Of a stretch of DNA of 39,623 nucleotides, positions 1,423 to 26,329 are shown piece by piece; positions within the stretch are counted from its first letter, which is position 1; each line of letters starts with the position of its first letter. Below the pieces are notes generated by a model. That model did no database searches, was not told the origin of the DNA, and saw only the letters and a list, made by a program, of their open reading frames with translations. Source of the stretch: Sphingobium amiense (GTDB taxonomy: Bacteria > Pseudomonadota > Alphaproteobacteria > Sphingomonadales > Sphingomonadaceae). Made by a program: the position numbers and the translations under genes. Location: assembly GCF_003967075.1 (NCBI RefSeq), contig NZ_AP018668.1, positions 1-39,623 on the forward strand. Direction: 5' to 3'.

Positions 1423-1427
1423 GGGGC

Positions 1428-9347: not shown

Positions 9348-10046
9348 ATGGATGAGGATAGCCAGGAGCGCAACGACCCGGCGCTGGCGTTCGAGCGATT
9401 GCGTGGCGAGGTGTCGTTGCTACGCCATGCGGTCGAGGCGCTGACCAGGGCGCGCGAGTCCATCGACATTCCCGATTACGAGCCGACGCTTGAGCGCACC
9501 GAAAAGGTGCTGGGTATCCTGGCGCAGCAGATCGACGGTGTGCGGAAAAGCCCCGCCATGACGCTCACCCCGGAGAATATGGGAGGCCGTTTAAACGCCT
9601 CCGTCGCAGAGGCCACCCGCGAACTGCGGGATCAGGTCCAATCCGCGAAATCGGCCTTGTCGTCCGCGACCTTCGACCTGCAAAACATGGTCGCGTCCGC
9701 GCGGCGCGGCGACGAACAAAATCGCTGGCTGTATATCGCCGGTGGCGGCGGCCTGGCGCTGGGGCTGTTGCTCTATGCGGTCCTCGCCGACCCCATCGCC
9801 CGCGTGACCCCGGATAGTTGGCGCTGGCCCGAGCGCATGGCGACGCGGACGCTTGGCGAGCCGTCGCTATGGGATGCGGGGCAACGGTTGATGCAGACGG
9901 CCGCGCCCGAGAGCTGGGGGTTGATCGTCGCGGCCTCGCCGCTCGCCGATGGCAACCGCGAGGCGGTGCAAGCGTGCCGCGAGCAGGCCGAGAAGGCGAA
10001 AAAGCCGGTGCGCTGCACGATCGAGGTGAAACCACAGAAGTTCTAA
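9348..10046 (+). CDS. DUF6118-like membrane protein of the tra region
   Basis: A 232-aa protein with an N-terminal coiled-coil-like region (ERLRGEVSLLRHAVEALTRA and a second helix near residues 90-120), one membrane segment (about 128-147, YIAGGGGLALGLLLYAVLAD) and a C-terminal domain ending in the basic ACREQAEKAKKPVRCTIEVK. I recognise it as the type of protein named DUF6118, common after traA on alphaproteobacterial plasmids; its function is unknown. A good Shine-Dalgarno (aaggaga) precedes the ATG and only 26 bp separate it from traA. A 3' fragment of a second copy lies near 14005. Confidence 0.78.
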   Translation: MDEDSQERNDPALAFERLRGEVSLLRHAVEALTRARESIDIPDYEPTLERTEKVLGILAQQIDGVRKSPAMTLTPENMGGRLNASVAEATRELRDQVQSAKSALSSATFDLQNMVASARRGDEQNRWLYIAGGGGLALGLLLYAVLADPIARVTPDSWRWPERMATRTLGEPSLWDAGQRLMQTAAPESWGLIVAASPLADGNREAVQACREQAEKAKKPVRCTIEVKPQKF

Positions 10047-12001: not shown

Positions 12002-12355
12002 TTAAATTTGCATGTTCATAATATCGTTGTAGGCAGTTAGCAGCTTGTTACGAACCTGAAGTGTCGCTTCAAAATTCACGCTAGATCGAGCTTGTAGGAG
12101 AGCCACGGTAGCGATGTCGGTCGTTTCACCACGTTCATAGGCTTCGGTTGCAACGTCTTCCTGCTCGAGCGTGGTATTGACGTTCTGAATAGCAGTTTGA
12201 AGGGTAGAGGCGAAGCCGCTAAGTGGCTTTGCACCGATCTCGCTGTCCGTGGGGCTCGAACGGGACGTTGCAGGAAGCAGGCCCCGCAGCGATGCGTTGC
12301 GGTCAAGCATAGTGGCGCGCATCGCCATTATATTCGCAACCGATAAATCGCTCAT
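12002..12355 (-). CDS. fliE: FliE-like flagellar basal-body protein, orphan copy 1
   Basis: A 117-aa protein with the FliE layout: N-terminal helix (ANIMAMRATMLDRNASLRGL), a variable middle, FASTLQTAIQNVNTTLEQE, then the conserved C-terminus (TTDIATVALLQARSSVNFEA followed by TLQVRNKLLTAYNDIMNMQI). FliE is the exported adaptor between the MS ring and the rod of the flagellum. No other flagellar gene occurs in this window. It is strongly similar to the copy at 25202 (shared DVATEAYERGET and FEATLQVRNKLL). The ATG at 12355 has no strong Shine-Dalgarno. A perfect CtrA-type box starts 52 bp upstream. Confidence 0.88.
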   Translation of the reverse strand: MSDLSVANIMAMRATMLDRNASLRGLLPATSRSSPTDSEIGAKPLSGFASTLQTAIQNVNTTLEQEDVATEAYERGETTDIATVALLQARSSVNFEATLQVRNKLLTAYNDIMNMQI

Positions 12356-12406
12356 TGCTCGTGGTCCACGTAAACGATCGCTCGCATCCGGCTTAACCCT
12401 GCTACT

Positions 12407-12421
12407 TTAAATATTGGTTAA
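12407..12421. promoter_or_regulatory. CtrA-type box TTAA-N7-TTAA before fliE copy 1
   Basis: TTAA-atattgg-TTAA is an exact CtrA full site starting 52 bp upstream of the fliE ATG, a position where a CtrA dimer would overlap the -35 region. The two other FliE-like genes have near-identical arrangements. Confidence 0.6.
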
Positions 12422-12521
12422 CCATATCAATATCAGGGCCAGTGCGTGCTGAAGTGAGAAGCGCAGTGCGAGGTGTTGGGCCCACGCTGGTCGATGTACA
12501 TAACCAATTGCGTCCGCGGGC

Positions 12522-12980
12522 TTAAAACCCCGTGGCGCTGTTCTTGTCGCAGGAAGCTCTCAGAAATTCCAAGGCTTCTCCGACCCGGCGCACCGAGGCA
12601 TTGTCCCCTACGTAGATATCCACCCCCCGGAAAGCGGTCATCCCGCCTGTGATCTCAACATAGGATTGAGGGCCGTTCGTTGAGAACGAGGGCCGGATGG
12701 ACAGAGCGCGGCTGAGATCGACAAGGTGACTGCTTTTGTCATTGAGTGCGAGCACCATCTGGCACGACTGCTTGAAGCTGACGGCAGTCACGGCCGACAG
12801 CCGGACAAAGCCGGGCCAGGGTTTTACTTCGGCAGGGCCGCGTGCAAGCATGTCGGAGATGAAGGTGGTGGCGCTCTTCGCCGTTTTCGCAGGCGCGGCA
12901 CTGACTGATTGAGCTTGCGCGGTATATCCCGGCGCAACGGCAAGAAGGACTGGCACTGTTGCGAGTACGACTCTAAGCAT
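12522..12980 (-). CDS. exported protein of unknown function
   Basis: A 152-aa protein with a clear signal peptide (MLRVVLATVPVLLAVAPGYTAQAQ, cleavage near AQAQ-SV), so it is periplasmic or secreted. The mature part has two cysteines (FKQSCQMVL and FLRASCDKN) that could form a disulfide. I do not recognise the family. The ATG at 12980 is chosen because the signal peptide starts there; the open frame extends 30 codons upstream into the GNAT gene. The start overlaps the GNAT stop by 8 bp, so both are probably cotranslated. Confidence 0.65.
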   Translation of the reverse strand: MLRVVLATVPVLLAVAPGYTAQAQSVSAAPAKTAKSATTFISDMLARGPAEVKPWPGFVRLSAVTAVSFKQSCQMVLALNDKSSHLVDLSRALSIRPSFSTNGPQSYVEITGGMTAFRGVDIYVGDNASVRRVGEALEFLRASCDKNSATGF

Positions 12981-13551
12981 GTCGATAGCGTGATTTCGTT
13001 GGCGAGGCAGGATACAGCGTCTTAACGAGGACGTGCATCGATCCGGCGCTTTGATTCCTATTCCGCTCATACCAGGTCAGGCGGTAAGCCAACCGCCGGT
13101 AAAGCGCCAAGGCGGCGGCGTTGTCCGGCTGAACACTGATCATCATGCCGCTGAACCCTGACGACGCAGCCCACGCCTCGGCACGAGAAACGAGGCGGGT
13201 ACCCCAGCCCTGATTTCGCCACTCCTCGTGTACGGCAAGCTCGAAGGAGGCGAAGGTGCAGCCTGGGTCATCGACGATCTCCCCGACATAGATCGCGCCG
13301 AATTTGCAGAAACCGCTGACGGCGGCGAACATGCTGCCGCGCCGATCTGGATAGGCTTCAAACGAGGGAATGGCCTCAGGTAGCTCGACAACAACCGGCT
13401 CCTCTGACCAGACTCTTTCCAGCATTGTCAAAGGGCCAAGCCCATGATGTTTTTGTGGGCACATATATCCGGATTTGGCATGGGACACTGCGAATGCGGC
13501 CTGCCCGCCATTTGGAGCGGAACCCGTAGTTCTAACGAGTGCCTCTATCAT
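12973..13551 (-). CDS. GNAT-family N-acetyltransferase
   Basis: The conserved GNAT core is visible: FELAVHEEWRNQGWGTRLV with the acetyl-CoA-binding Q/RxxGxG/A-type loop (RNQGWGTRL), then SGMMISVQPDNAAALALYRR and LAYRLTWYERN, the usual beta5 region. The substrate is unknown. The start is uncertain: ATG 13551 overlaps the stop of a FliE-like fragment (ATGA), while ATG 13464 and ATG 13425 are closer to where family similarity begins. It appears to form a unit with the fragment upstream and the exported protein downstream, behind a CtrA-type box. Confidence 0.75.
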   Translation of the reverse strand: MIEALVRTTGSAPNGGQAAFAVSHAKSGYMCPQKHHGLGPLTMLERVWSEEPVVVELPEAIPSFEAYPDRRGSMFAAVSGFCKFGAIYVGEIVDDPGCTFASFELAVHEEWRNQGWGTRLVSRAEAWAASSGFSGMMISVQPDNAAALALYRRLAYRLTWYERNRNQSAGSMHVLVKTLYPASPTKSRYRHA

Positions 13552-13682
13552 CGCAACAGCGAAGCGGGCCCCGGCTTCGCCTCGTTGCTAATAGCGGCCA
13601 GACCCACGCTAGCAACATTCTGGAGCGCGTTGCTCCGCGCCAGGATGGTGCTCCTGATGGCCGTAACTTCGTAAAGCGACAT
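13548..13682 (-). pseudogene. truncated FliE-like N-terminus (third copy)
   Basis: A 44-codon frame starting MSLYEVTAIRSTILARSNAL and then QNVAS. It parallels the start of the 25202 copy (MGMRSAILERNAALRNVA): shared RS, IL, R, AL, NVA in register. The frame stops after 44 residues where FliE would continue for about 70 more, and no continuation is seen in other frames. Its TGA overlaps the ATG of the GNAT frame. A CtrA-like box lies 50 bp upstream, like the full copies. It may be a decayed gene or a short leader peptide. Confidence 0.65.
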
Positions 13683-13731
13683 GGGAATTTCCCGAATTAG
13701 ACGACGCTCTGGCGACAATAACACCAAGCCT

Positions 13732-13746
13732 TTAGAGGATGGTTAA
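13732..13746. promoter_or_regulatory. CtrA-like box before the truncated FliE copy
   Basis: Read leftward it is TTAA-ccatcct-CTAA, one base off the TTAA-N7-TTAA consensus, 50 bp upstream of the ATG at 13682. Confidence 0.45.
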
Positions 13747-13752
13747 CGACAT

Positions 13753-14004
13753 TCAAGAAAGATTGAGCGCTGATGCACGGTGCCATCTGGGGCAGGGTGC
13801 CTGATGGAAGCCGGTCTGGCCGACCTTCAGCTCCCATGACCTCGAAAACCCTTGATGGTGGCGTAAGCGGTCGGCGTCGACTTGACCCAGGAGCGGCAGG
13901 ATCAGCCGTTTAAGCCGCTCGTTGTCCGTCTCGATCCGGTTGTTTGAGATACTTGGCGCGGCGGTGGTCAACGTGGACGGGGCAGACGCCCTCCCGCTCC
14001 AACT
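13753..14004 (-). pseudogene. remnant of an IS6-type transposase with a frameshift
   Basis: Leftward reading gives EREGVCPVHVDHRRAKYL in one frame and NNRIETDNERLKRLILPLLG in the next. Together they match the C-terminal part of IS6-family (IS26/IS6100-like) transposases, where the sequence runs ...H-x-KYLNNRIE-D.... An extra A in the run tctcaaacaacc breaks the frame. The N-terminal part is missing, and no terminal inverted repeats were found. Confidence 0.55.
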
Positions 14005-14087
14005 CGGCAATCGCAAGGCGGTAAAGGCGTGCCGCGAGCAGGCGGAAAGGCGAAGAAGTCGGCGCTACACGATCGAATCAAATTGAT
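14005..14087 (+). pseudogene. 3' fragment of a second DUF6118 gene
   Basis: The stretch ggcaatcgcaaggcggt and aaggcgtgccgcgagcaggc, then the bases to about 14075, follow the 3' end of the DUF6118 gene (9950-10026) with scattered substitutions and a small indel; the KACREQAE codons are recognisable. It abuts the IS6-type remnant, so a rearrangement brought a plasmid-backbone fragment here. Confidence 0.6.
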
Positions 14088-14187
14088 GGCGGCGCGACAG
14101 CTTTTTGCCTGTGGACTTTCGTCTGGAACGGAAAGCCGATCGATCGCTTCGCCGATGGTGACCGCATGCGGCGCAACAATTACAGGC

Positions 14188-14931
14188 TCACTGGCGGTCC
14201 TTTAGTTCAAACGGTATGCGGACGAGGCCTCGTACCTGGCTAGGTCGCCCGTCGATCATCGTCGGCGACCATCGCCAGCGGCGAACAGCATTGAGCGCAG
14301 CTTTGTCGAGGCGATCGGCGCCGCTGCTTGCCGCGACCGATATGGCGCTCACCCTCCCTTCCTCATCGACAACGACCATGAGGATGACAGTCCCGGTCTC
14401 GCGTCGGCGCCGGGATTCTATTGGATAGCGAGGCGGCTCGGCTGACAGCAGCCGCGTGTTGAGGTTGACCAGGGTGTTCGTTGCTCGTGACGGTGGCGAC
14501 TTTGTCTCCTCTGTCTTGACCGGCGCGGGCGGTTCCGGTTCGGTTTTCGGGGTCATCTGGATCGTCGTGGGCGCCGTCGGCGTCGCGACGAGTGGAGGCG
14601 GAGCGACAACCTGCTGGGGCTTGGGAGCCTTTTCGACCATTTTCTGCGTCGGCAGCGCGATCGGCTCGGGCGGCGGCGGATCGAGCGGAAGAAGATTGAC
14701 CACCAGCGGCGGCGCCGGAAGCCGTTTGGCAATATCTATGTTCAAATGCTGCAAGGCATAAAATCCGGCGACATGGATCACAGCGATCAGGCTAAGCGAA
14801 ATCCAGCGGAGCTGACTGCTCGGCTGATAACGGCCAGGCGCCTCGCCTCCCCAGGGCTTTTGCGCCTCATACGCGATGTCCCGATGAGTCTCGCCTGGTC
14901 CATAGTCGACGACTTTCACGTCCTCACCCAC
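14188..14931 (-). CDS. tonB: TonB energy transducer
   Basis: A 247-aa TonB: cytoplasmic N-terminus, one membrane anchor (about residues 43-61, WISLSLIAVIHVAGFYAL), a Pro-rich periplasmic spacer (about 72-150, with LDPPPPEPIALP) and the C-terminal TonB fold (PPRYPIESRRRRETGTVILM, then VVVDEEGRV and LNAVRRWRWSPTMIDG). It would pass proton-motive energy from ExbB/ExbD to outer-membrane receptors. The start is a GTG at 14931 (or GTG 14919). It overlaps the stop of the preceding gene by 8 bp and closes an operon with the receptor at 15547-17745, its most likely client. No exbB/exbD is present here. Confidence 0.9.
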   Translation of the reverse strand: MGEDVKVVDYGPGETHRDIAYEAQKPWGGEAPGRYQPSSQLRWISLSLIAVIHVAGFYALQHLNIDIAKRLPAPPLVVNLLPLDPPPPEPIALPTQKMVEKAPKPQQVVAPPPLVATPTAPTTIQMTPKTEPEPPAPVKTEETKSPPSRATNTLVNLNTRLLSAEPPRYPIESRRRRETGTVILMVVVDEEGRVSAISVAASSGADRLDKAALNAVRRWRWSPTMIDGRPSQVRGLVRIPFELKDRQ

Positions 14932-15538
14932 GCTTTAAATCGGAAGCGGCGCGATAGACACCTGTGCGCACGCGCACGAGCAGTCCCTGCTTGAACATCA
15001 GGCTGACGACCTGCCGTGATACGCCGAGTGCGGCCAGATCGCGCGACGAGGCGATACCGCGTGAGCAAACGAAGGCGAGCGCCTTTTCCTGTAGGCTTTC
15101 CGGCATCGGCGGCAAGGGCCGCCGCTGCGATCGAGGGCGGACTTGCAAGAGCGGCGCGGTCGAAACAGACAGTTCCTTGCAGGCGTCGATCATGCCCGAG
15201 AGGCGGGAGATCGACGCGTGATTGAGGTGCACGCCCTCAAATGCCAAGCGGCGTGCGCAGGCAAGCGTGGGCGTACGGATTGCCCCACTGATCTTCAGGA
15301 GCACGCCGGGATTCTCGCGTTGCATCGCGGCGATGCAGCCAAGCAGGCATAGCTCCTGCCGGCTTGCATAGGCGCCTGTAAGCGGTCCCGGCCGAAACCC
15401 AAGCTCGCCGGCGGTCGTGCGAAGCCGATCAAAGAGAGCAAGTAGTCCGCCGGACGCCGACCCAGGATCGGCCCCCCGCAGGAGGCCGATCACATAGCGT
15501 TCGCGCGAGGTGAGCCGGGCAAGGCTGAACACGCGCAT
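14924..15538 (-). CDS. hypothetical protein with a C-terminal winged-helix-like segment
   Basis: A 204-aa protein encoded between a TonB receptor and TonB, overlapping both closely. The N-terminal half (LTSRERYVIGLLRGADPGSA, LGCIAAMQREN) is not recognised. The last 50 residues read LQEKALAFVCSRGIASSRDL, then GVSRQVVSLMFKQGLLVRV and GVYR. This matches the winged helix at the start of AbiEi-like and related proteins, where GVYR closes the wing. It could be a DNA-binding regulator of the uptake operon; this is inference. A similar gene linked to TonB is common in sphingomonads as far as I recall. Confidence 0.6.
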   Translation of the reverse strand: MRVFSLARLTSRERYVIGLLRGADPGSASGGLLALFDRLRTTAGELGFRPGPLTGAYASRQELCLLGCIAAMQRENPGVLLKISGAIRTPTLACARRLAFEGVHLNHASISRLSGMIDACKELSVSTAPLLQVRPRSQRRPLPPMPESLQEKALAFVCSRGIASSRDLAALGVSRQVVSLMFKQGLLVRVRTGVYRAASDLKRG

Positions 15539-15546
15539 GACCAGTG

Positions 15547-17745
15547 TCAGAACCGGGCGTTAAGGCTGATCCTGAACGCTCTCGGCGATCCAGGCGTGAT
15601 GTTGTTGTTGCTGTTCGCGTAAAGGAAGTAGCGTTCGTTGAGCAGGTTCTCGATATTGACTTGCACGCTGAGGTTCTCGCTGACGTCGTAGAAGGCGGCT
15701 GCATCGACGCGGGTGTAGCCGGGCATCGCGACGATGTTGTCGGTGCCTGCAAACCGGCGGCCTTGGCGGATAACGCCGATCGCACCGCTCAGTCCGCCGC
15801 CAGGATTGAAGCGCGTCCAGATCGATCCGCTGTGCTTGGGCACATTGGCGAGCTGGTTACCGGCGCGCACGGTGCCCGACACGGTGTCCAGGAACCTGGC
15901 GTCGGAATAGGTGTAGGCGCCGACAACGCTCAACTGGTCGGTGATTGTCCCCTGCGCGCTCAACTCGACGCCTTCGCTGCGCTGGCGGCCGACCGGGATG
16001 GTCGGCGAGGCCGCATTGTTCGGATCACTCAGCGCAAGTACATTGCTGCGATCAAGCCGGAACACGGCGGCCGTGACGTTGAAGCCGGGATTGATGTCCC
16101 ACTTCGCGCCGATTTCGTAATTTTGATACCTCTCGGGTGCCAGGTTCTGGTTGGAAACCGACAGACTGGTGAACTGATCGCCGCCGCGGGGCAGATAGGT
16201 CCGCGAATAGGCAGCATAGATCGATGCATTCTCGGCCGGCTTGAAAATCAGCGCCGCACGCGGCGACCACAGATTGTCGGTCACATCGAATTCGCGCTGC
16301 TGGGTCGCCGGCACGAATGCTGCGGGCCGGCGGTCGGTCACCTTGGTGTTGAGATACTCGTATCGGACCCCGAGGATGACCTGGAACATCGGCGACAGTT
16401 CGATCTGGTCCTGAACATAGCCGGCAGCGACCTTCAGCACGCCGGCGTTGTTGCCGCTGGTGGCGGCGGGGCGGTAGATCACGTCGGGTCGGCGAATGTT
16501 GGAGGCGGCGATCGGAACGGTAATGGATGACGTTCCAACCAAATCCGTCGGACTCGCGGGGAAGAAGCCCTCCCGACGGAAATTCTCGGTCTCCTGGCGA
16601 CCCAGTTCAGCGCCGACGAGCAGGGTATGCTTGATCGACCCAGTCGAGAATTCAGCATTGAGGTCGGTCTGGTTGATCAGGTTTCGCCGCTGCATCGCAT
16701 TGTCGTAAGCCGATATGGAGACGCTGGTGCCGGCAGCGTTCACGGCGCCGGGAAAAACATTGCGGTATAGCTTGGCATAATCCGCGTAGCGGGTGCGGTT
16801 TCGCAGCGTCACGGCCTCGCTGAAGCGGTGCTCGATGTAGAGGGTCCCGGCATCGGTATTGGTGTAGGTCGGGCTGCCGGCCGGATCACCAAAGAACTGC
16901 CCGCGCGGCGTGTCGAGGGGCCCGCCGATACTGGTCGTGGATGCGCCGGGGCGCGCCGGGACGCCACGGTCGGCGATGCGATCGTCCTTGAAATGCTCGT
17001 AGCCAGCGGTGATCGTCGTTGCCTCGCCGAGTTTGAACGTGACGGTCGGATTGAAGCCCCAGCGGTTGTAGTTGACGCCATCGCGGTAGCTGCCGCTATC
17101 CTGATAGACGCCGGTCAGGCGCACGGCGATCGCATCGCTGAGCGGCGTCCCGAGATCGAACTGCGCACGCTTATGCTCGAAGCTGCCGCCTTCGAGCCGG
17201 AAGGCGCGATGCGGTGTCCAGTCCGCGACCTTGGTGACGCGGTTGATGAGACCGCCGACGCCGCCGCGGCCGAAGACCATCGCATTTGGTCCCTTGAAGA
17301 CCTCCAACCGCTCGATGTTATAGAGATCGCGATAAGTCTGCACATCGTCGCGGATGCCATCGACGAAGAAATCGCCGGTAGTGGAGTTACCGCGGAACAC
17401 CAGCGTTTCGCGGTTGCCTTCACCTTGCGCCGAAAAGACGCCTGGGACATAGCGGATCGCGTCGCCGATGCTGTTCGCCGCCTGATCGTTGATTTGCTTG
17501 GCCGACACGACTGTCACGCTCTGCGGCACATCGATAAGCGGCGTGTCGGTGCGCATTGCGCCGATGCTGCGCGACACCTTGTAGGAGGTTTCGGCTTCCT
17601 GATCGTCGATGACCGTATCGGTCACGGTCACGCCCCCCAGCTCGGTCGGTTTGTCCTGCGTTTGTGCCAGCGCCGGCGAAGCCGCAGCAATCAGTGCGAC
17701 CGAAAGCGAGCCCAGCGAAACGCGTGTGAGGATACCGGATTTCAT
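15547..17745 (-). CDS. TonB-dependent siderophore receptor (Fiu/FhuE-like)
   Basis: A complete 732-aa outer-membrane receptor. It has a signal peptide (cleavage near PALA-QT), a TonB-box-like GGVTVTD, a plug domain (IDVPQSVTVVSAKQINDQAA, IGDAIRYVPGV, LVFRGNSTTGDFFVDGIRDD, NIERLEVFKGPNAMVFGRGG) and a 22-strand barrel ending in the aromatic C-terminus RISLNARF. The plug pattern is that of catecholate/hydroxamate siderophore receptors; the ligand is not determinable. The ATG at 17745 has AGGGGGG upstream. It starts the receptor-orf-tonB operon. It is distinct from the receptor fragment at 10133. Confidence 0.92.
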   Translation of the reverse strand: MKSGILTRVSLGSLSVALIAAASPALAQTQDKPTELGGVTVTDTVIDDQEAETSYKVSRSIGAMRTDTPLIDVPQSVTVVSAKQINDQAANSIGDAIRYVPGVFSAQGEGNRETLVFRGNSTTGDFFVDGIRDDVQTYRDLYNIERLEVFKGPNAMVFGRGGVGGLINRVTKVADWTPHRAFRLEGGSFEHKRAQFDLGTPLSDAIAVRLTGVYQDSGSYRDGVNYNRWGFNPTVTFKLGEATTITAGYEHFKDDRIADRGVPARPGASTTSIGGPLDTPRGQFFGDPAGSPTYTNTDAGTLYIEHRFSEAVTLRNRTRYADYAKLYRNVFPGAVNAAGTSVSISAYDNAMQRRNLINQTDLNAEFSTGSIKHTLLVGAELGRQETENFRREGFFPASPTDLVGTSSITVPIAASNIRRPDVIYRPAATSGNNAGVLKVAAGYVQDQIELSPMFQVILGVRYEYLNTKVTDRRPAAFVPATQQREFDVTDNLWSPRAALIFKPAENASIYAAYSRTYLPRGGDQFTSLSVSNQNLAPERYQNYEIGAKWDINPGFNVTAAVFRLDRSNVLALSDPNNAASPTIPVGRQRSEGVELSAQGTITDQLSVVGAYTYSDARFLDTVSGTVRAGNQLANVPKHSGSIWTRFNPGGGLSGAIGVIRQGRRFAGTDNIVAMPGYTRVDAAAFYDVSENLSVQVNIENLLNERYFLYANSNNNITPGSPRAFRISLNARF

Positions 17746-17771
17746 TAATTCCCCCCTGGCAGGTAATAGCT

Positions 17772-17799
17772 AATGCGAACCAATTGCATATTTGCGATT
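17772..17799. promoter_or_regulatory. possible Fur-type operator before the receptor operon
   Basis: AATGCGAACCAATT and GCATATTTGCGATT form an imperfect dyad (AATGCGAA / TTGCGATT) 27 bp upstream of the receptor ATG, where an iron-responsive repressor would act. Match by eye only. Confidence 0.3.
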
Positions 17800-18043
17800 G
17801 GCGCTATGGACGGCCAGGGGCCGCCCGTCAAGTTGGTGTAGCGCTCGTCGGCCGCCGGTGAGCAGCGTCTGGGCGCTCTTGCGTTGGTGTTTTTCCCTGT
17901 TCACTCGCGACAGGCGCCGAGCAGCCTCACCGCCATTCCGCTGTGGCTGCTCGGCGGCGGCTTGGTGCGGCTATAGCCGGATGGGACGATCAACGTCGTG
18001 GTGGCTCTGTTGCAAACGCGCTATCCGGAACCGAACCGAATGG
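17800..18043. other. intergenic region, possible gene remnant
   Basis: No convincing gene. A rightward reading near 17840-17978 (ALALVFFPVHSRQAPSS, then PLWLLGGGLVRL and a stop) looks like the hydrophobic end of a membrane protein, but it has no start and no family I can name. Confidence 0.3.
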
Positions 18044-18772
18044 TTATGGACGGTCGAAATTGGCAGCAGAACCATATACCATATCCGAAGCCGCAAGCTT
18101 ACGGCTCACTGACCAAGTCCTGGTCACGAATAAGAATACCATAATTCCTGCACAAAATACTACAAAGACATCAAAATATATTCGAGCCGAGGGAGGACTG
18201 GCCATATTCTTTGTGAGAAGCATAGAAAGAGATAATATAATTAATATTATCCTTAGTTCTGTCGGGCCAATGTTGAAGTGCGAAAGAGGAAATTCGTGGA
18301 TGACGTGAGCGATCAGAAATGTATGGATCGCCAGCAGCAGGTATCCAGCAAGGGCGAACAGGGCGATCGACATCGTGACGTACGGGCTGGCGCCCATGCC
18401 GACCATGATGAAGAGAATGGTCAGGCCATCGCAACTATGATCGACGAAATAGCCATATGATGGCCGCTCGATGCTGCGGAACCTCGCTAGGCTCCCGTCC
18501 ATCGAGTCACCGAACCACTGCACCACAAAGCCGGCGATCGCGAGGATGAGCCAGAACGGGTTGCTGTTGCTGGCCGCGTAACCGATGCCAGTCAGGGCCG
18601 CGCCGGCCAGGCCTGTGGCGGTAAGGATATCAGGTGTCATCCAGCGCGGCATGCGGGCGCATAGCCAGGTCAGCAGCCGCCGTTCGGGACCGGCAAGCAG
18701 GTTTTCTTGAATTCGTTTCGGCCGGTTGGTCATGTCATTCCTGCTGTGGGTCGTTGGTGCTTTCTCGTCCAT
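18044..18772 (-). CDS. CDP-alcohol phosphatidyltransferase family protein
   Basis: A 242-aa integral membrane enzyme with the family signature DSMDGSLAR at about residues 89-97, followed by G-x3-D-x3-D (GYFVDHSCD), i.e. D-x2-DG-x2-AR-x9-G-x3-D-x3-D. Such enzymes transfer a phosphatidyl group from CDP-diacylglycerol to an alcohol such as glycerol phosphate, serine or inositol; the acceptor cannot be read from the sequence. Several membrane helices follow. Its ATG shares one base with the stop of the MlaA-like gene, so the two are translationally coupled, pointing to a shared role in envelope lipids. Confidence 0.88.
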   Translation of the reverse strand: MDEKAPTTHSRNDMTNRPKRIQENLLAGPERRLLTWLCARMPRWMTPDILTATGLAGAALTGIGYAASNSNPFWLILAIAGFVVQWFGDSMDGSLARFRSIERPSYGYFVDHSCDGLTILFIMVGMGASPYVTMSIALFALAGYLLLAIHTFLIAHVIHEFPLSHFNIGPTELRIILIILSLSMLLTKNMASPPSARIYFDVFVVFCAGIMVFLFVTRTWSVSRKLAASDMVYGSAANFDRP

Positions 18773-19764
18773 CAGGGCAACACAGGTAGGGTTCGCCGAT
18801 CGATCGGCTGCGAAGGGACACGTCCGCGCAGAGCGTCGATCTCAGCCTGACGACCCGCAAGATAATGAGCCCGGGAAGCTGCATAGGGATCAGGCGAGTC
18901 TTTGAAGGCTTGCAGTTGCGTATCGAATTCAGCTCGGTAATCGAGCGAGCCGACGATAGTGGCCGGGGCCGTGTAGGTGGGTTGGTTGAATGGCGCGCCG
19001 ATCGTTGATGGGAGCACCATGCGATCGATACTCAACCCCACCAGATCACGGACAGTCGTGGGGCCGATCAGCGGCAGGAAGAGAAACGGCCCGGGCTTCA
19101 CACCATAAAAGCCTAATGTGTTGGCAAAGCCGTTCGGCCGTCGCGGAAGCCTGAACGGCTTTCGTCGGGCAACATCGATGACGCCACCCACACCGACCGT
19201 CGTATTTACCGCGAAGCGGGCGACGGTTTCTGCCGCCCTGCCCGGTTTGATCTGCAGCATGAAATTCAGGAAGCTGACGGGCTCGGACAGATTGTTGAAG
19301 AAGTTGCGGATACCCGCCCGGAGCGGATCCGGCAGCACTTTCTGGTAAGTCAAGGCCACGGGTGCCACGACCGCTTTGTCGACAGCCTGGGTAGCGGCAT
19401 AAGTTTGCACGTTGACCGCTTGGAGCGGATCACCGGGGGCGGAGCGAGGTCGCGCTTTGACAACAATATCGCTTTGGTCGCCAGGGAGAGGATCGATCTC
19501 CTGCGGCACCTCGCCTGTTGGAAGATCAAGAGGTGATTCGATTGCGGATGGAAGAGCTGCGACCGTCAAACCGCTAATCATGACTGCGTTGGGCGCCAGT
19601 AGCGGCCTTGCGTCTTTTCGGTCCGCCGCCTGCGGAGAAGAAGCCGCTTCCACGGGAAAATCTACCACCGGCAAAGGCTGGCCGTCTTGCGCAACGGCAG
19701 CGGAACCGACGACCAATGCGAACGGGCTCAAAACGATCGTTGTCGTCCGGTTTGCAAATCGCAT
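18772..19764 (-). CDS. MlaA (VacJ)-family outer-membrane lipid protein
   Basis: A 330-aa exported protein. The C-terminal two thirds match MlaA: YQKVLPDPLRAGIRNFFNNL, SEPVSFLNFMLQIKPG, ARFAVNTTVGVGGVIDVA, then FANTLGFYGVKPGPFLFLPL and IGPTTVRDLVG. MlaA removes mislocalised phospholipids from the outer leaflet of the outer membrane. Two oddities: the signal peptide (ending near SAAVA-QD) has no lipobox cysteine, so it is probably not a lipoprotein, and about 100 residues of Pro/Asp-rich sequence precede the domain. It leads a two-gene operon with the phosphatidyltransferase. No mlaBCDEF is present here. Confidence 0.88.
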   Translation of the reverse strand: MRFANRTTTIVLSPFALVVGSAAVAQDGQPLPVVDFPVEAASSPQAADRKDARPLLAPNAVMISGLTVAALPSAIESPLDLPTGEVPQEIDPLPGDQSDIVVKARPRSAPGDPLQAVNVQTYAATQAVDKAVVAPVALTYQKVLPDPLRAGIRNFFNNLSEPVSFLNFMLQIKPGRAAETVARFAVNTTVGVGGVIDVARRKPFRLPRRPNGFANTLGFYGVKPGPFLFLPLIGPTTVRDLVGLSIDRMVLPSTIGAPFNQPTYTAPATIVGSLDYRAEFDTQLQAFKDSPDPYAASRAHYLAGRQAEIDALRGRVPSQPIDRRTLPVLP

Positions 19765-20120
19765 CGTGGAACCTCTCCGCTCTACCTAGTTTACGCAGCA
19801 GGACAGTGTTGCCCTTGGGTTGCGTGTTTTTTTTGAGAGGCGACAGGAGATCGAGCAATCAGCTCCGCCCAAAACCGAGGGATTCCGGACGGGGTCGCGC
19901 GGCGTGTCTAAAAGACAGCTGGACGCGGTATGGACAGGCATCTCGATACGGACACTTTGTAAACGGATCAGGCCCTTTTCGCCCACCTGCGCTTAAGCCC
20001 GCGTATCCATTCGCTCGACGGCGTGAGGGCAAACGGTGTTCGCTGCGTATCTCTATTAGAGGGTCGCTGAGCAGCAAGCGCGGGTTGTGGCAGGTGCCAC
20101 GTCGATCAGGAGGGAGCGCA
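19765..20120. other. divergent promoter region, no gene
   Basis: This is the 356-bp gap between the leftward mlaA-like operon and the rightward cytochrome c gene. No coding frame with recognisable content was seen. A run of eight T's at about 19829-19837 is the only striking feature. The end carries the Shine-Dalgarno caggaggg for the cytochrome. Confidence 0.5.
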
Positions 20121-20723
20121 ATGGCAGGCTTGAATATTGATACCCGTCGGCATCTGCCCAGCGCGACGTTCGTGGGCATTGCCGCCGCGCTGCTAGCGGT
20201 CTTCACCGGCATTTTCATCTATGCGGGAATATACAATATCGCAGGCGACGACCCGCATAGCAAACCCGTCTATTGGGTGCTCGAAAAGCTCCGTAACCAG
20301 TCGATCGCCGCGCGGGCGCGCGGTATCGCGGTCCCGGCCGACCTGGGCAGCGCGACACGGATCTCGACCGGCGCGGGCCTCTACACCGAGATGTGCTCAG
20401 GGTGCCATCTCGGGCCGGGAGTCGAGCGCAGCGAGATGAGCCAGGGACTCTACCCGCAAGCGCCCGAACTTGCCCGTGACGGGCAGCGCCTGAGCCCGGC
20501 CGAACAATTCTGGATCATCAAGCACGGTGTGAAGTTGAGCGCGATGCCGGCCTGGGGTCGCACCCATCCCGATCCGCTGATCTGGGACATGGTCGCGTTT
20601 GTCAGGAAGCTCCCTGGAATGCCGGCGGAAGAATATAAGCGTATCATCGCGACCGCGCCTGCCGACCACGATGAGATGATGAAAGATATGCCCGGCATGG
20701 CGGCCAAGCCCGGCGCGAAGTGA
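20121..20723 (+). CDS. membrane-anchored cytochrome c
   Basis: A 200-aa protein with an N-terminal membrane anchor (about residues 14-42, FVGIAAALLAVFTGIFIYAG) and one heme-binding motif CSGCH (C92-H96). A likely axial methionine is in KLSAMPAWG, followed by DMVAFVRKLPGM, the typical end of class I cytochrome c domains. It would shuttle electrons in the periplasm. The tail DHDEMMKDMPGMAAKPG is Met/Asp rich and may bind metal. The ATG at 20121 has aggaggg at the right distance. The next two genes follow closely on the same strand. Confidence 0.88.
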   Translation: MAGLNIDTRRHLPSATFVGIAAALLAVFTGIFIYAGIYNIAGDDPHSKPVYWVLEKLRNQSIAARARGIAVPADLGSATRISTGAGLYTEMCSGCHLGPGVERSEMSQGLYPQAPELARDGQRLSPAEQFWIIKHGVKLSAMPAWGRTHPDPLIWDMVAFVRKLPGMPAEEYKRIIATAPADHDEMMKDMPGMAAKPGAK

Positions 20724-20733
20724 AGACGACAAC

Positions 20734-20994
20734 ATGCGACCCGAGGCAACGGCCATGACGGAGCAGTCGCCACGCATCGCCTGTGCCGACGGCGATCATC
20801 GTCCCCACCGAATTGAGGATGACGAGAGCGGCGTGCAGCGGGCGGTCTGTCGTGCTTGCGGCTGCACGCTGGTGCGGACCCTGGCGACGCGGCGTTGGTA
20901 TTACTCCGGCGTGCTCGGCGACTCGCCAGCGCAGGCAGGCCTAGCCCAAGCCGTTACTGGCCGAGCGCGCGCACTTCCCCGCCATGGACAATGA
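20734..20994 (+). CDS. small protein with a CxxC pair, unknown function
   Basis: An 86-aa hypothetical protein with two cysteines in CRACGC and others nearby (RIACADGDH, RAVCRACGCTL), which could form a small zinc-binding knuckle. I do not recognise the family. ATG 20734 is given, but ATG 20755 (MTEQSPRIA) is as likely. It lies 10 bp after the cytochrome gene and overlaps the start of the PAP2 gene by 11 bp, so it is part of the same transcript. Confidence 0.5.
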   Translation: MRPEATAMTEQSPRIACADGDHRPHRIEDDESGVQRAVCRACGCTLVRTLATRRWYYSGVLGDSPAQAGLAQAVTGRARALPRHGQ

Positions 20995-22006
20995 ACGCGC
21001 TCGCTTGCCCGATGGAAGCTGCCACAGCGGTCGCAACTGGCACCTCGCGCCCAAGACGATCCCGCTTAGCTGGCTTCTCGGCGCCGTAGGCTTCAGTCTT
21101 GTCGCAGTCGTCGTGATGATGGTGCGATTGAGAATCGCCGTGCAGGTCGATGCGAGGCTCGGTATCTTCATCGTGCTCGCATTCTCCGGAACCGTTACGA
21201 TCCGTTTCCGATTCCGGCAACCGCTATCGAGACAGCAGCGGGTATGGCGGGACGCCGCCGAATATTATGGGCTCTTCATAAGCATCTGCGTGATCGGCGC
21301 CCTGGCGGCCTATCCTGTGGCGGCGATCAGTACGGGCTTCGCCGACTCAGCGCTTGAGCGCGTGGACCATTTTCTGCGTTTCGACTGGCTGGCATGGTAT
21401 CGCTTCGTGGTGGAGCACCCGGCTATCCAGTGGCCTGAGCGAGCGGCTTATCAAAGCATATTTTTTACCCCCGCAGTGTTGTTCGCTTACTACGCCTGGA
21501 GCGCTCGCAGGGCTGAGGCGCGCCAGTTCATCCTATCTTTCTGGCTGGCTGCGTTTCTTACGCTGCTGTTGTTCTTCCACGTTCCCGCGAAGGGGCCGCT
21601 CGCTTTCCTCTGGCATGGACCGCTGCCCTATGTGCCAGAGAGCGCGCTGTACCAGGCCGATCTCATCCCCGCGCTCAGAAGCCATGCGGCAAAGCCCATC
21701 GACTTGGGGGCGCTACGTGGGCTGGTCGCCGCTCCCAGCTTCCATGCGGCGAGCGCTCTGCTCTACATCGCAGCGGCGTGGCCGCTGAGGCCTCTGCGGT
21801 GGCCGGTCACCATTCTCAACGCGGCGATGCTGCTTGCGACGCCGGTCGAAGGAACGCACTATCTTGTTGACCTGATCGCTGGGGCTGCGGTCGCGCTCGC
21901 TGCTCTTGCGATCACGCAACTGGCCGCTCGCCGTTTTAGCCCCCGTCTGGCTAGCCGTCCGCAGCGATGGAAAACAGCGCAATCGACAATCAGCAGCGCT
22001 GAATAG
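20984..22006 (+). CDS. PAP2-superfamily membrane phosphatase (Aur1/Ipt1-like type)
   Basis: A 340-aa polytopic membrane protein. The C-terminal half carries the late PAP2 motifs: the first histidine in AAPSFHAASALLYIAAAWPL and the second in GTHYLVDLIAG. The typical KxxxxxxRP motif is not obvious, as in the inositolphosphotransferase (Aur1/Ipt1) branch. It may dephosphorylate or transfer a phospho-head group on a lipid. With the CDP-alcohol phosphatidyltransferase and the MlaA-like protein across the divergent gap, it suggests an envelope-lipid cluster (inference). Confidence 0.82.
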   Translation: MDNERARLPDGSCHSGRNWHLAPKTIPLSWLLGAVGFSLVAVVVMMVRLRIAVQVDARLGIFIVLAFSGTVTIRFRFRQPLSRQQRVWRDAAEYYGLFISICVIGALAAYPVAAISTGFADSALERVDHFLRFDWLAWYRFVVEHPAIQWPERAAYQSIFFTPAVLFAYYAWSARRAEARQFILSFWLAAFLTLLLFFHVPAKGPLAFLWHGPLPYVPESALYQADLIPALRSHAAKPIDLGALRGLVAAPSFHAASALLYIAAAWPLRPLRWPVTILNAAMLLATPVEGTHYLVDLIAGAAVALAALAITQLAARRFSPRLASRPQRWKTAQSTISSAE

Positions 22007-22093
22007 AATCCAGATTCTCCGCACCCTATGGCGGAAATGTTAGGGAAGAAGCTTGATTGGCCGGCTGAATGGGCCATCGCCGACTCCGCTGTA

Positions 22094-22570
22094 TCATTCC
22101 GAGATATCCTTCTGGATTGTGCTTTGTTGGGCGTGTTGGCGCGAGCGGTGCGATAGTCGCGTCCAGCCTGGCATGCGATGGAGTTCGAGGATCAGCAGGA
22201 GCAGAACCGCTGTCATGACGGCGATATGGTAGATGCCGTAGGCGGTACTGAGGCCGACCGCAGCGGATGCCCAGAGTGTAGCGGCGGTTGTAAGACCGGT
22301 CACGCGTCCGGAATCACGTAAGATGATCCCCGCGCCTATGAATCCGATCCCTGTGACGATGCCGGCGGATATCCGGCCGCCATCGCCGATGGCGCCGGAA
22401 ATCAGCCCGAATGCGCATGCACCCAACGAGGTGGCCATATAGGTGCGGATGCCGGCCTCGCGGCCGCGATGTTCGCGCTGCCATCCTATAATGGCCCCGA
22501 GCAGGGCAGCCAGACTTATACGGCCGATGTCGACCCACCATGGTGCATCGCCTGTTGCGAATTCCGTCAT
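22094..22570 (-). CDS. MgtC/SapB-family membrane protein
   Basis: A 158-aa protein with four or five membrane helices and the MgtC signature: LAALLGAIIGWQREHRGREA, GIRTYMATSLGACAFGLIS, IVTGIGFIGAGIILRDSG and RVTGLTTAATLWASAAVGLS. MgtC proteins affect growth at low magnesium and modulate the ATP synthase in pathogens; the role of short forms like this is unclear. ATG 22570 is chosen over the TTG one codon upstream. The broken NRAMP gene lies just upstream in the same orientation, as if both once formed a metal-linked pair. Confidence 0.9.
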   Translation of the reverse strand: MTEFATGDAPWWVDIGRISLAALLGAIIGWQREHRGREAGIRTYMATSLGACAFGLISGAIGDGGRISAGIVTGIGFIGAGIILRDSGRVTGLTTAATLWASAAVGLSTAYGIYHIAVMTAVLLLLILELHRMPGWTRLSHRSRQHAQQSTIQKDISE

Positions 22571-22636
22571 CAACGCCCCGATCTCTCACCACTTATAGAA
22601 ATTGAATAACGATCAACGCACCTGCGGTGGCCGCTA

Positions 22637-22950
22637 TGACGGCCGTTGTAGCTTATCCGAGAAAAAGAAGCTTTTGGGCGCGGTGAACTGTCCCATGCCG
22701 CTGCGGCGGGACACCACGACCATCGGCGCGACCATGATCGGCATGGAGACGATGCCGTTGATGACCGCGCTCCAGAACAACACCTTGATCGGATGAGTGA
22801 CGAGCAGTGGATTGCGGCGTTGAGCGGGGCGGCAAGGGTGATAATGCCATAGAAACCGGCGCCTCCCCAGGGCGCTGGTCGAGGCCACACTTCGACCATG
22901 CGCAATCGATCGTCGGCGCAATCCAAGCTTCAATTTCCTCTCCCGTTGAC
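22637..22950 (-). pseudogene. broken NRAMP (MntH-like) metal transporter, C-terminal part
   Basis: Three leftward frames together give the end of an NRAMP Mn/Fe transporter: WSKCGLDQRPGEAP up to about 22857, then FYGIITLAAPLNAAIH (22854-22800), then HPIKVLFWSAVINGIVSMPI and GMGQFTAP (22801-22690). At least two frameshifts and the loss of the N-terminal two thirds make it inactive. The NPIKALFWSAVINGV-like motif is characteristic of the family. Confidence 0.75.
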
Positions 22951-23002
22951 GTAACTGAGCTCATCGAGGCTATATACGCGTGGGGAATGAAGCGCGAATG
23001 GT

Positions 23003-23737
23003 TTAAGGCCTTGTCGCATAGTTGTTCTTATGAGGCTGAGTTACTCGCTCGCTTATGCCGGACAACTGCGTCACCAGATAGAAGGGCCGCCTATATTCCG
23101 AATCTAAAGTGAAGTCAGACGACCAGATAAACGCATCATGAATGCGTCGCGAGCGACGTGATTCACTATCGAATGCAAAGAAGTAGTGGTTGACCAGCAT
23201 GCAGATGCCGCCGGGCGACAGAAGCTGTGCTATGCGCCTCGACAATGTTTTCAGGGCCGCATCGTCCAGCGGAAATAGATAGTAAAGGACATCCGCGATC
23301 ATGATAAGATCAAAGCGGCCGTCGAGAGATGACGGTAACGCCATGATATTGTGGGTTTCGAAGGCCAGGTTCGGCACGTCGGCATGCTGTACACGGGCAC
23401 GCGCGATGGCGGTAGGCGCAACGTCTACGCCCAGCACCGAATCCGCATGAGCTGCAAGATGCCGCGATAGCAAGCCCAGACCGCAGCCAAGGTCGAGCGC
23501 GTGATGGAAACGTCGGGGTGGCAATCGTGAGGCAAGAACCTCATATTTCCGACGCTGATAGCGATAGTGCGGTGAGCCTGCGGCCCAAGGGTCGGGGTTG
23601 GCGGCATAGACGGCCTCAAGCGCAGCGGCCGCACCCTGCGTTGAGCGCAGCTGATTGAGGCGAGCATCGGTGCGGGCGCTGCGAACGAATAGACCAACGT
23701 CGCGCAAGCCCATGAAGAATGGCATTGCTTCATTCAT
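23003..23737 (-). CDS. SAM-dependent methyltransferase (NodS-like)
   Basis: A 244-aa class I methyltransferase. The SAM-binding glycine motif HALDLGCGLGLLSRHLA is at about residues 79-95, followed by the acidic VLGVDVAPTAIARAR and the motif FDLIMIADVLYYLFPLDD. The preceding NPDPWAAGSPHYRYQRRKYE is typical of NodS-type enzymes, which methylate small amino-group substrates; the substrate here is unknown. The start may be ATG 23737 or 23725. The gene stands alone, with the NRAMP remnant behind it. Confidence 0.82.
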   Translation of the reverse strand: MNEAMPFFMGLRDVGLFVRSARTDARLNQLRSTQGAAAALEAVYAANPDPWAAGSPHYRYQRRKYEVLASRLPPRRFHHALDLGCGLGLLSRHLAAHADSVLGVDVAPTAIARARVQHADVPNLAFETHNIMALPSSLDGRFDLIMIADVLYYLFPLDDAALKTLSRRIAQLLSPGGICMLVNHYFFAFDSESRRSRRIHDAFIWSSDFTLDSEYRRPFYLVTQLSGISERVTQPHKNNYATRP

Positions 23738-23820
23738 TCCTGTTGCGCGCGGCCTTGCCGCGAGGGCGGGCCAGGCAAAGCGCAGCCGGGCGGCTCTGTG
23801 GGCCGTCCGGCTGCGGCACT

Positions 23821-24057
23821 TTACTTGCTGGTCTTGGCTGCCTGGGAATGACGTTTGCCAGGATGGTGTTTCTTGGCTTTATGTCCCTTGCCCGTCATTC
23901 CTGTGGAGGCACTGGCTCCTCCGGACCTATGCGCAGACTGACTGCTCATCGAGCTGTTGGACATGCCCGGCATCGACTTGTTCATCTGTGCGGTAGCTGG
24001 TGCGGTGATGACTAGCGCAGCGGCAGCGATAACAGGGATCGATTTAATGTTAGTCAT
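23821..24057 (-). CDS. small exported Met/Lys/His-rich protein
   Basis: A 78-aa protein with a signal peptide (cleavage near ATA-QM). The mature 54 residues are low-complexity: a Met/Ser-rich part (MNKSMPGMSNSSMSS) and a basic His/Lys tail (GKGHKAKKHHPGKRHS). Such composition can bind copper or other soft metals, but no fold or family is evident. It is the first of four short exported proteins with unusual composition in the next 2 kb. Confidence 0.65.
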   Translation of the reverse strand: MTNIKSIPVIAAAALVITAPATAQMNKSMPGMSNSSMSSQSAHRSGGASASTGMTGKGHKAKKHHPGKRHSQAAKTSK

Positions 24058-24130
24058 GACGCTCTCTCCTCAAAACTAACTAAAATAATTCATTTAATCG
24101 AATAGCTTTCAAAAAAAGCAGTACAGGGCG

Positions 24131-24448
24131 TTAGTGGCGTTCGCCCCTGCGGTAATAGTCCGGATGGTCGAAGGTGTGCCAACTGGGATGGTTCTGATAC
24201 CAGGACTGTGGGTGGCCATAGTTCCGCCAGTCCGGCGGATAGGTATATTGTTGACGCTGATTGTGTGCGTCCTGATAATAGCCCGTCTGATATGGGATGC
24301 GCGAATTATTTGGGCCGGGATAATAGCCACTGGGAGCGCCTCTATGCTGATCATGGCCATGCCCCGGGTCGGCGAACGCCGGACCACTGAGTGACGCAGC
24401 GCAGGCCAGCGCGACGCAGGCCAGAATTCCGTAGCTTCTGCTTGTCAT
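24131..24448 (-). CDS. small exported Tyr/His/Pro-rich protein
   Basis: A 105-aa protein starting MTSRSYGILACVALACAASL with signal cleavage near AFA-DP. The mature part is rich in His, Tyr, Gln and Asn (DPGHGHDQHRG, GYYPGPNNSRIPYQTGYYQD) and ends in HPDYYRRGERH. Family unknown. ATG 24448 is chosen at the start of the signal peptide, with gaga upstream; the open frame begins at 24484. It resembles the protein at 24781 in composition and in the PxxWxxYGxxQxW-like pattern, so the two may be diverged relatives. Confidence 0.65.
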   Translation of the reverse strand: MTSRSYGILACVALACAASLSGPAFADPGHGHDQHRGAPSGYYPGPNNSRIPYQTGYYQDAHNQRQQYTYPPDWRNYGHPQSWYQNHPSWHTFDHPDYYRRGERH

Positions 24449-24780
24449 GCGCCTTCTCCTTAAAGCCTGCCGCAGGAGCGGCACGCATATTCTCTCTTAT
24501 GGAATACGCACGGATGCGGAAAACCCCTCAAGGTTCGTTGCGGCTAAGCCGGAGGGCACCCCGCCCGGTGAACGGCAACCTCTATCCGTGGCCATTATGA
24601 TGTTCACCGGCGAGCGCGCAAACCCGGCGCTACCACACCAGCGGGGCACAGCCTTTCAGTCCAGACTGCCGAGCGCGATCGGTGAATGCCGGCTGTCGAT
24701 TGTATTCAGCATCGGGCAACAGCGAACCGCTTAGATCATCAGCACGGTCGATTTGACGATCGCGCCTGAAAGGAAGTGTG
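24449..24780. other. intergenic region, divergent promoters
   Basis: A 332-bp gap between two divergent genes for small exported proteins. No coding frame with recognisable content and no strong repeat were seen. The Shine-Dalgarno aaggaag for the rightward gene is at its end. Confidence 0.45.
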
Positions 24781-25098
24781 ATGAAACGCATGGTGCTTGC
24801 AGCTGCGGCTCTGGCCGCGACGGCTTTTACTGCGGCGGCGCCCAGCGCGGCGTTTGCCCAGGATCACTATCGCGGCGGCCATCACGCCCGCTATGATCAT
24901 GGCGGCGACAATCAGGATTATCATTCGCAGCCCCGCTGGGCCGGTGATCCCTATGGGACATGGAGCTATAATCAGCAGTGGCAGAATAACGGCCATGCCC
25001 GCGGCCACGATCGGCGCGGCTACACCGGCCACGGATATGATGGTCGCCAGTATGACGTCCATGGCTACGATCAGCGCCACGGTGGTGGGCACTATTGA
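24781..25098 (+). CDS. small exported His/Gly/Tyr-rich protein
   Basis: A 105-aa protein with a signal peptide (MKRMVLAAAALAATAFTAAA, cleavage near AFA-QD). The mature part is rich in His, Gly, Asp and Tyr (DHYRGGHHARYDHGGDNQDY) and ends in a loose repeat of GYDxxxY/GYDQRHGGGHY. It may bind metals through histidines, or be a surface or matrix protein; no family is recognised. The ATG at 24781 follows AAGGAAG; a GTG one codon earlier is less likely. Confidence 0.65.
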   Translation: MKRMVLAAAALAATAFTAAAPSAAFAQDHYRGGHHARYDHGGDNQDYHSQPRWAGDPYGTWSYNQQWQNNGHARGHDRRGYTGHGYDGRQYDVHGYDQRHGGGHY

Positions 25099-25141
25099 TC
25101 GTATGGCAGTTGGGGAGCGGACTGGCCGAGGCGCGGCGTAG

Positions 25142-25156
25142 TTAACCAAATTTGAA
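25142..25156. promoter_or_regulatory. CtrA-like box before fliE copy 2
   Basis: TTAA-ccaaatt-TGAA, one base off the consensus, starts about 46 bp before the GTG start of fliE copy 2. A further TTAA half site follows at 25167. Confidence 0.5.
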
Positions 25157-25201
25157 GGCGCTTTCCTTAAACCGGTAGAGGCTGGCTAAGGAGTTTGATC
25201 G

Positions 25202-25555
25202 GTGAGCGACATATCGGTCGCGAATGTCATGGGGATGCGCTCGGCGATCCTTGAACGCAACGCGGCGCTGCGAAACGTCGCCCCGTCTCTTCCCAGAGCG
25301 ACCGCGGGGGTCGGCAGCGTCGCAGGCGTGGGGTCGGTCAGCTTCGCGTCCACGCTGGATAGCGCCGTCGAGAAGGTCAACGCCACTCTCGAAGCGGAGG
25401 ACGTGGCGACCGAAGCCTATGAGCGCGGTGAGACGAACGACATCGCTACCGTCGCCCTGATGCAGGCCCGGACATCGGTGAGTTTCGAGGCGACGCTCCA
25501 GGTCCGCAACAAGTTGCTCTCAGCCTACAAGGACATCATGAGCATGCCGGTCTAA
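25202..25555 (+). CDS. fliE: FliE-like flagellar basal-body protein, orphan copy 2
   Basis: A 117-aa FliE, the same length as copy 1. It has an N-terminal MGMRSAILERNAALRNVAPS, then SFASTLDSAVEKVNATLEAE, DVATEAYERGETNDIATVAL and the conserved end FEATLQVRNKLLSAYKDIMS. The GTG at 25202 is the start: AAGGAG lies 8-9 bp upstream and the N-terminus lines up with copy 1 (MSD.SVAN.M.MR). FliE joins the MS ring to the proximal rod. It stands without other flagellar genes, between genes for small exported proteins. Regulation by CtrA is suggested by the box upstream. Confidence 0.9.
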   Translation: MSDISVANVMGMRSAILERNAALRNVAPSLPRATAGVGSVAGVGSVSFASTLDSAVEKVNATLEAEDVATEAYERGETNDIATVALMQARTSVSFEATLQVRNKLLSAYKDIMSMPV

Positions 25556-25961: not shown

Positions 25962-26329
25962 CACGCTTCTCCGGGGCTCCTGGACCGATCGAGTTTCTAA
26001 CGACTCCAACGCTTGACAAGTCAGGATGATACAGACGCTCATATGAGTCTGGCCTGAACGCCGCCGATTCGTAGCCTTCGGCCCAAAGTGCGGAATCCGA
26101 ATTGATGCCGCCCATGATTCCTAGCTGATCGTGCCCAAGCTTGCTCAACGCCGCATCAGGCCTGGCTTCGTCATCGCGTAGTCCTGCTGGCGCAGAACAC
26201 ATCAAGCTGCCGCTCGGCGCGTCCACCGCAAATTAAAAATGCAACTGCAATGGTGGAATTCCCGCCCCGCCCTATATATGATAATGTCCTTTATCACACA
26301 CTCAAACACCAACAGACCAAGGACGGAAA
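25962..26329. other. intergenic region between island and recombinase operon
   Basis: No confident gene. A leftward frame at 25948-26226 lacks recognisable content and overlaps the upstream region of the His-rich gene. The right end has an AT-rich stretch with tatatatgataat (26271-26285), a plausible promoter for the following operon, and aaggacgga as its ribosome site. Confidence 0.4.

Follow-up and report, generated by a model that had tools for sequence, protein, structure and literature searches.

Stand-Alone FliE Paralogues behind CtrA-Type Boxes on a Plasmid of Sphingobium amiense

Results

The window analysed here is contig C5 of the 4.77-Mb genome of Sphingobium amiense, a stretch of 39,623 bases that carries plasmid-type genes: ParA-like and VirD4-like open reading frames (ORFs; recognised by eye), a Rep3 initiator, and a TraA relaxase, so annotated in relatives. 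On it lie two full-length paralogues of the flagellar basal-body adaptor FliE, W1 and W2, and an N-terminal FliE-like stump, W3, each behind a CtrA-type box (Table 1). We propose, with a probability of about 0.6, that W1 and W2 belong to a mobile lineage of accessory FliE proteins and are made together with the host basal body and built into it. As judged by sequence, they share a CtrA-type box with the flbD-fliE-fliF operon of the host, and their family is under purifying selection, with ratios of nonsynonymous to synonymous substitution rates (dN/dS) of 0.02–0.35.

Full-Length FliE Paralogues of a Mobile Family

Both W1 and W2 score well above the cut-offs of the FliE models of Pfam (PF02049; 80.7 and 79.6 bits, cut-off 22.4) and NCBIfam (fliE equivalog TIGR00205; 73.2 and 72.2 bits, cut-off 30). 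A sequence-only reading of the window had named them as two full-length FliE proteins with no other flagellar gene nearby, and this description holds: no flagellar genes besides fliE were found among the 26 other window proteins, part of the window ORFs, that were scanned with Pfam. The FliE model matches three places in the host genome, namely W1, W2, and a chromosomal copy (C1:2820323-2820553), and FliF is found on contig C1 only, which places W1 and W2 outside any flagellar gene cluster. W1 shares 61% identity with W2 and 48% with the chromosomal copy.

The predicted structure of W1 (mean predicted local distance difference test score, pLDDT, 67.7; predicted template modelling score, pTM, 0.35) contains three helices, at residues 6-26, 48-74, and 81-113, and residues 43-117 of the model superpose on flagellar rod entries with root-mean-square deviations of 1.4–1.7. 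The assignment to the three-helix fold, in which helices 2 and 3 make up domain D0, rests on this W1 model; W3 spans helix 1 only.

A tblastn search of 72,556 plasmid records with W1 gave 26 records with a match: 22 from Sphingomonas, Sphingobium, Sphingopyxis, or Novosphingobium, one from Qipengyuania, and three others; the Aeromonas and Octadecabacter matches lie outside the inspected loci. Two of the first 11 plasmid loci inspected (L013 and L017) are in flagellar clusters and nine are outside. We call a copy an orphan when FliF is absent from the fetched stretch, some stretches being short. A match on a Pseudomonas aeruginosa megaplasmid was rejected as an orphan, since it sits in a fle/fli cluster. 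Extra fliE copies of the W1/W2 kind occur, one to three each, in 18 of the 94 genomes of the genus, one copy being a truncated piece; weak second FliE matches in genomes G215 and G223 (L053 and L054) fall outside this count. Some orphans are not plasmid-borne, as is the case for L048 (G202) on a 5.1-Mb contig and L073 (G407) on a 3.0-Mb contig. A phage origin found no support in a viral-contig collection, where 91 stretches matched a pattern and none encodes a relative.

For the tree, 137 FliE rows, several places having been fetched twice, were collapsed at 93% identity to 69 representatives (24 orphan, 45 flagellar); left out were L051 (5′-truncated), L053 and L054 (without a match to our motif), and W3. 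Twenty orphans form clade A (support 94/87, just below the starred level of the tool), which holds W1 and W2 together with a Sphingomonas metalli copy (100/85, starred). Three further orphans form clade B (100/96), and L117 stands loosely beside it (85/83). Neither clade nests within the flagellar FliE of the genus, and because the deep fork joining them lacks resolution, one origin is not separable from two. On this tree, W1 and W2 are members of a clade of stand-alone sphingomonad FliE paralogues, often plasmid-borne. In a substitution table that leaves out L117, L017, and L156, clade A shares an altered middle patch, and the C-terminal flagellar interaction end is nearly unchanged.

CtrA-Type Boxes before Orphan fliE Genes

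The boxes stand 60–66 bp from the three start codons, counted from the first T of TTAACC, at the positions that the sequence-only reading had given them. Passages of PMC6180460 present TTAA-N7-TTAA and TTAACCAT as CtrA motifs, found near −35 where CtrA activates. At up to one mismatch, TTAA-N7-TTAA occurs at four sites in the whole window, three of them being the W1, W2, and W3 boxes, against a mean of 1.7 in 30 base shuffles. The fourth, an exact site at 11772-11786, lies ~86–100 bp upstream of a YgjV-like gene (11132-11686, minus strand) and is possibly a further CtrA target or a chance occurrence in AT-rich DNA. A sigma-70 scan of positions 11700-13900 gave one site, with 1.8 expected.

Exact TTAA-N7-TTAA sites number eight in the host genome, versus 20 for the reversed control pattern. 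The form GTTAAC-N7-TAA has six sites (reversed control, 10), two of which are the W1 and W3 boxes, while another is directly before the chromosomal flbD-like-fliE-fliF operon. The same kind of box was present 92–98 bp before flbD in all 14 flbD-fliE-fliF operons of the genus that were examined, the host's included, and had the TTAACC form in 11; these operons are a chosen sample from the 91 genus genomes with a FliE match.

A box (N7, at most one mismatch) at 50–75 bp, a range fixed after the first boxes were seen, precedes 12 of 25 orphan representatives (W3 included), versus 0.15 expected from dinucleotide shuffles. None was present at this distance before the 45 flagellar-cluster fliE copies, whose box in the genus precedes flbD, or before 415 other ORFs of at least 120 aa (non-gene ORFs included) in the same 23 loci. 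Other patterns and spacings reached at most 3/25 each, except for the N6 form of the motif, found in 11/25, nine of these also having the N7 box; L070 and L104 have the N6 box alone. A 6-bp CtrA spacing is reported for Rhodobacter and Magnetospirillum in passages of PMC6180460.

The host encodes a CtrA-like protein that is 79% identical to Caulobacter CtrA, and a citation in PMC8921679 calls CtrA a master regulator of motility in Sphingomonas melonis. That W1 and W2 are wired into the host CtrA network, as the sequence-only reading had supposed, is well supported at the sequence level by the shared motif, the similar distance, the box before 14/14 fliE operons, its recurrence in several orphan lineages, and the CtrA-like protein of the host; the binding of CtrA to these boxes is a prediction.

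A metal P-type ATPase gene was found near 10 of the 11 representatives without a box at 50–75 bp or an N6 box (all but L031) and near one of 11 boxed representatives outside the window; these are raw counts from plasmids of a group rich in metal genes, and some of the stretches are short. The difference suggests that orphan fliE occurs in two settings, either behind its own CtrA-type box or box-less inside a metal-resistance locus. A clade A group (L031, L032, L033, L036, L096, L097, and L103) has a GTG start and a one-mismatch box at 119–120 bp rather than ~60, and its start or leader may differ. L034 and L045 encode clade B FliE in ordinary coding sequences, their upstream region having been replaced and the box lost.

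The W3 Stump and the GNAT Gene

The third FliE-like gene of the sequence-only reading is not a FliE gene: W3 matches neither the Pfam nor the NCBIfam FliE model. Aligned to FliE N-termini, it reaches a top score of 67, compared with a maximum of 54 in 1000 shuffles, and it probably represents a fliE that was truncated behind helix 1, perhaps one of clade B. Some clade B fliE genes (L014, L015, and others) have exactly the W3 box at a nearly equal distance (65 bp vs. 64 bp for W3), yet alignments of the stump to flagellar copies are equally good or better (L057, 67; L014 of clade B, 61), which leaves the parent of W3 uncertain. What remains would be a promoter and the first helix, and this promoter may now drive the overlapping GNAT acetyltransferase gene. 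GNAT relatives are absent from plasmids at an E-value of 1e-5 and from the other 93 genus genomes at 1e-10, so the arrangement looks local. In the wider and rather doubtful scheme considered in the Discussion, W3 might even compete for the MS (membrane and supramembrane) ring with nothing but its first helix.

The GNAT gene is followed by a gene for a 182-aa protein. Three sphingomonad plasmids carry partial relatives of this protein (62–71% of its length) in the vicinity of YgjV and GNAT genes, with no box in the stretches scanned beside these relatives (parts of L159, L160, L161, and L162).

Table 1. Positions of the FliE-type frames, their boxes, and neighbouring genes on the window.
Feature	Coordinates	Strand	Description
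W1	12002..12355	-	Full-length FliE paralogue, 117 aa, clade A (tree)
W1 box	12407..12421	-	TTAACCAATATTTAA; exact TTAA-N7-TTAA; 66 bp before start codon
W2	25202..25555	+	Full-length FliE paralogue, 117 aa, GTG start, clade A
W2 box	25142..25156	+	TTAACCAAATTTGAA; one mismatch; 60 bp before start codon
W3	13548..13682	-	44-codon FliE-like N-terminal stump, helix 1 only; ATGA overlap with GNAT start
W3 box	13732..13746	-	TTAACCATCCTCTAA; at most one mismatch; 64 bp before start codon
GNAT acetyltransferase gene	12973..13551	-	PF00583, E 2.3e-12; overlaps W3
182-aa protein	12522..13070	-	No known family (no Pfam match); after GNAT gene
TraA relaxase	6160..9321	+	Ti-type; relatives near orphan fliE in L015, L016, L037, L069, and others; annotated traA in related plasmids
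DUF6118 gene	9348..10046	+	PF19613, E 2.7e-27

Neighbouring Genes

W1 lies ~2 kb downstream of the DUF6118 gene and is convergent to it. The clade A cluster L037/L069/L105 is likewise downstream of, and convergent to, traA-DUF6118, the distance being ~1.4 kb in L037/L069. In the set of 17 clade B rows, which includes places fetched twice, every row has an NTF2-like gene nearby, nine have DUF6118, and eight have traA; where a clade B locus has both traA and DUF6118, the order is traA-DUF6118-fliE in one direction. Many clade A copies are co-directional with CusA, P-type ATPase, bestrophin, or SRPBCC genes, and the related plasmid WTD-1 unnamed3 combines traA-DUF6118-fliE with a copper-resistance block. 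Comparison of the SnoaL/DUF4440 protein of the window (955-1572) with the NTF2-like gene next to clade B fliE gave an E-value of 0.25, which is not significant.

W2 is flanked by three small, histidine-rich, secreted-looking proteins (24131-24484, 24778-25098, and 25581-26042), which are perhaps metal-binding and had no Pfam match above the cut-off; an MgtC gene (22094-22573) is near them. Elsewhere on the window, the start of a TonB-dependent receptor (Plug domain) is fused directly to the end of a Tn3 transposase domain (10133-10900), a chimeric transposition scar, and an AbiEi-type antitoxin-like regulator (14924-15538) lies between tonB and a TonB-dependent receptor gene.

Discussion

We infer the following course of events. 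Phosphorylated CtrA would switch W1 and W2 on as construction of the flagellar basal body starts, in time with the flbD-fliE-fliF operon. The flagellar export gate would let the two proteins out, after which they would bind FliP/FliR and the FliF ring and take their place among, or instead of, the few chromosomal FliE subunits. The readiness of gate opening, the firmness with which the rod is held, or the number of flagella would be altered, and the plasmid would thereby tune the flagellation of its host. W1 and W2 could plausibly replace or modulate chromosomal FliE, because they keep the ends that are important in Salmonella.

FliF was present in 44 of the 45 non-redundant orphan hosts checked (22/23 plus 24 more, minus two genomes counted twice), a tally that includes 23 of the orphan loci of a later set, with the remaining loci and the hosts of annotated plasmid records outside it. 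Beyond the genus, FliF was found in 26/27 orphan hosts versus FliE in 136/199 genomes of the family (p ~0.001), a comparison that sets FliF against FliE and is confounded by kinship. Two observations speak against an accessory flagellar role: 11 of the 25 orphan representatives have no box at 50–75 bp, and one orphan host, G166, lacks FliF in a genome that is 99% complete.

Instead of tuning the flagellum, a defective or competing plasmid FliE might jam or delay basal-body assembly and so act as a brake on motility, to the benefit of surface life, mating contact, or metal tolerance. The altered middle patch of clade A partly covers a segment whose deletion impairs Salmonella motility, according to passages of PMC8546590; traA-DUF6118 neighbours fliE on this window, in one cluster of clade A, and at roughly half of the clade B loci; and the timing would be set by a box that also precedes the native operon. 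However, the C-terminal end has hardly changed and the family is under purifying selection, and since both favour a working substitute over a poison, we rank substitution or tuning first and the brake, which we consider unlikely, second.

Less likely still is a role in envelope or metal stress without the flagellum, in which a FliE-like protein would be part of a metal-resistance module. The co-directional metal genes of many clade A copies, the P-type ATPase genes near box-less representatives, and the FliF-less host G166 point in this direction. They are countered by the FliF present in the other orphan hosts, by the conserved flagellar interaction end, and by the boxed copies, which bear the box of the flagellar operon.

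The boxes themselves might bind another regulator that shares the TTAA half-sites, rather than CtrA. The binding of CtrA is a prediction from sequence, and the TTAACC form is found in only 5 of the 12 orphan boxes; the N7 spacing, the likeness to the flbD-operon box with its prevalent TTAACC form, and the agreement with both CtrA motifs of PMC6180460 make a different regulator improbable. Finally, that the fliE copies are neutral passengers carried by chance, with boxes left from their origin, would suit the decay of W3, the lost boxes of L034 and L045 with the protein kept, and the truncated L051, but is very improbable given dN/dS values well under 1, the recurrent carriage in the genus, and the confinement of the boxes to a narrow range of distances.

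Beyond the accessory role proposed for W1 and W2, we tentatively consider a wider and rather doubtful scheme, in which mobile FliE variants (clades A and B, which may stem from more than one recruitment) would follow the host CtrA cycle and supply new basal bodies with a plasmid-coded export-gate adaptor; conjugation and metal stress would thereby be coupled to motility or to flagellar secretion. A rod contains about six FliE molecules (passages of PMC11673145), and no other substrate passes the export gate before FliE (passages of PMC9114704); with so few copies and so early an export, a spare mobile FliE under the host timer would be a simple handle on host swimming. If this is true, plasmids, like some phages, read the alphaproteobacterial CtrA cycle, and a plasmid could set the swimming of its host through one 117-codon gene. 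FliE and CtrA promoters are well known; among the titles and abstracts of the hits from our literature search, none describes an orphan plasmid FliE or a mobile family of FliE paralogues with the flagellar operon's kind of box.

Comparison with Known Systems

W1 and W2 resemble the FliE hook-basal body adaptor (PF02049, TIGR00205) in their full-length match, three helices (in the W1 model), and conserved C-terminal end, and orphans differ from it in standing alone, with a CtrA-type box of their own or in a metal-resistance locus, and in a clade-specific middle patch. Plasmid-borne flagellar clusters are known on Qipengyuania citrea plas1 and Sphingomonas paeninsulae unnamed1, where fliE lies beside fliF, a fliG-type gene, and a FliI-type ATPase gene, whereas here the plasmid fliE is alone. 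In other Alphaproteobacteria, flagellar promoters under CtrA control (those of Caulobacter and, in passages of PMC6180460, Rhodobacter fla2) have the same TTAA-N7-TTAA and TTAACC forms before flagellar genes, and the Sphingomonas melonis phosphorelay is a further case, cited in print; in the window, the box belongs to a plasmid gene rather than to a chromosomal flagellar cluster. Passages of PMC9437464 describe phages that exploit the CtrA sites of their host and are likewise mobile elements reading its CtrA state, but the function proposed there is to time the lytic cycle, whereas the boxes studied here would control the paralogue of a flagellar component of the host.

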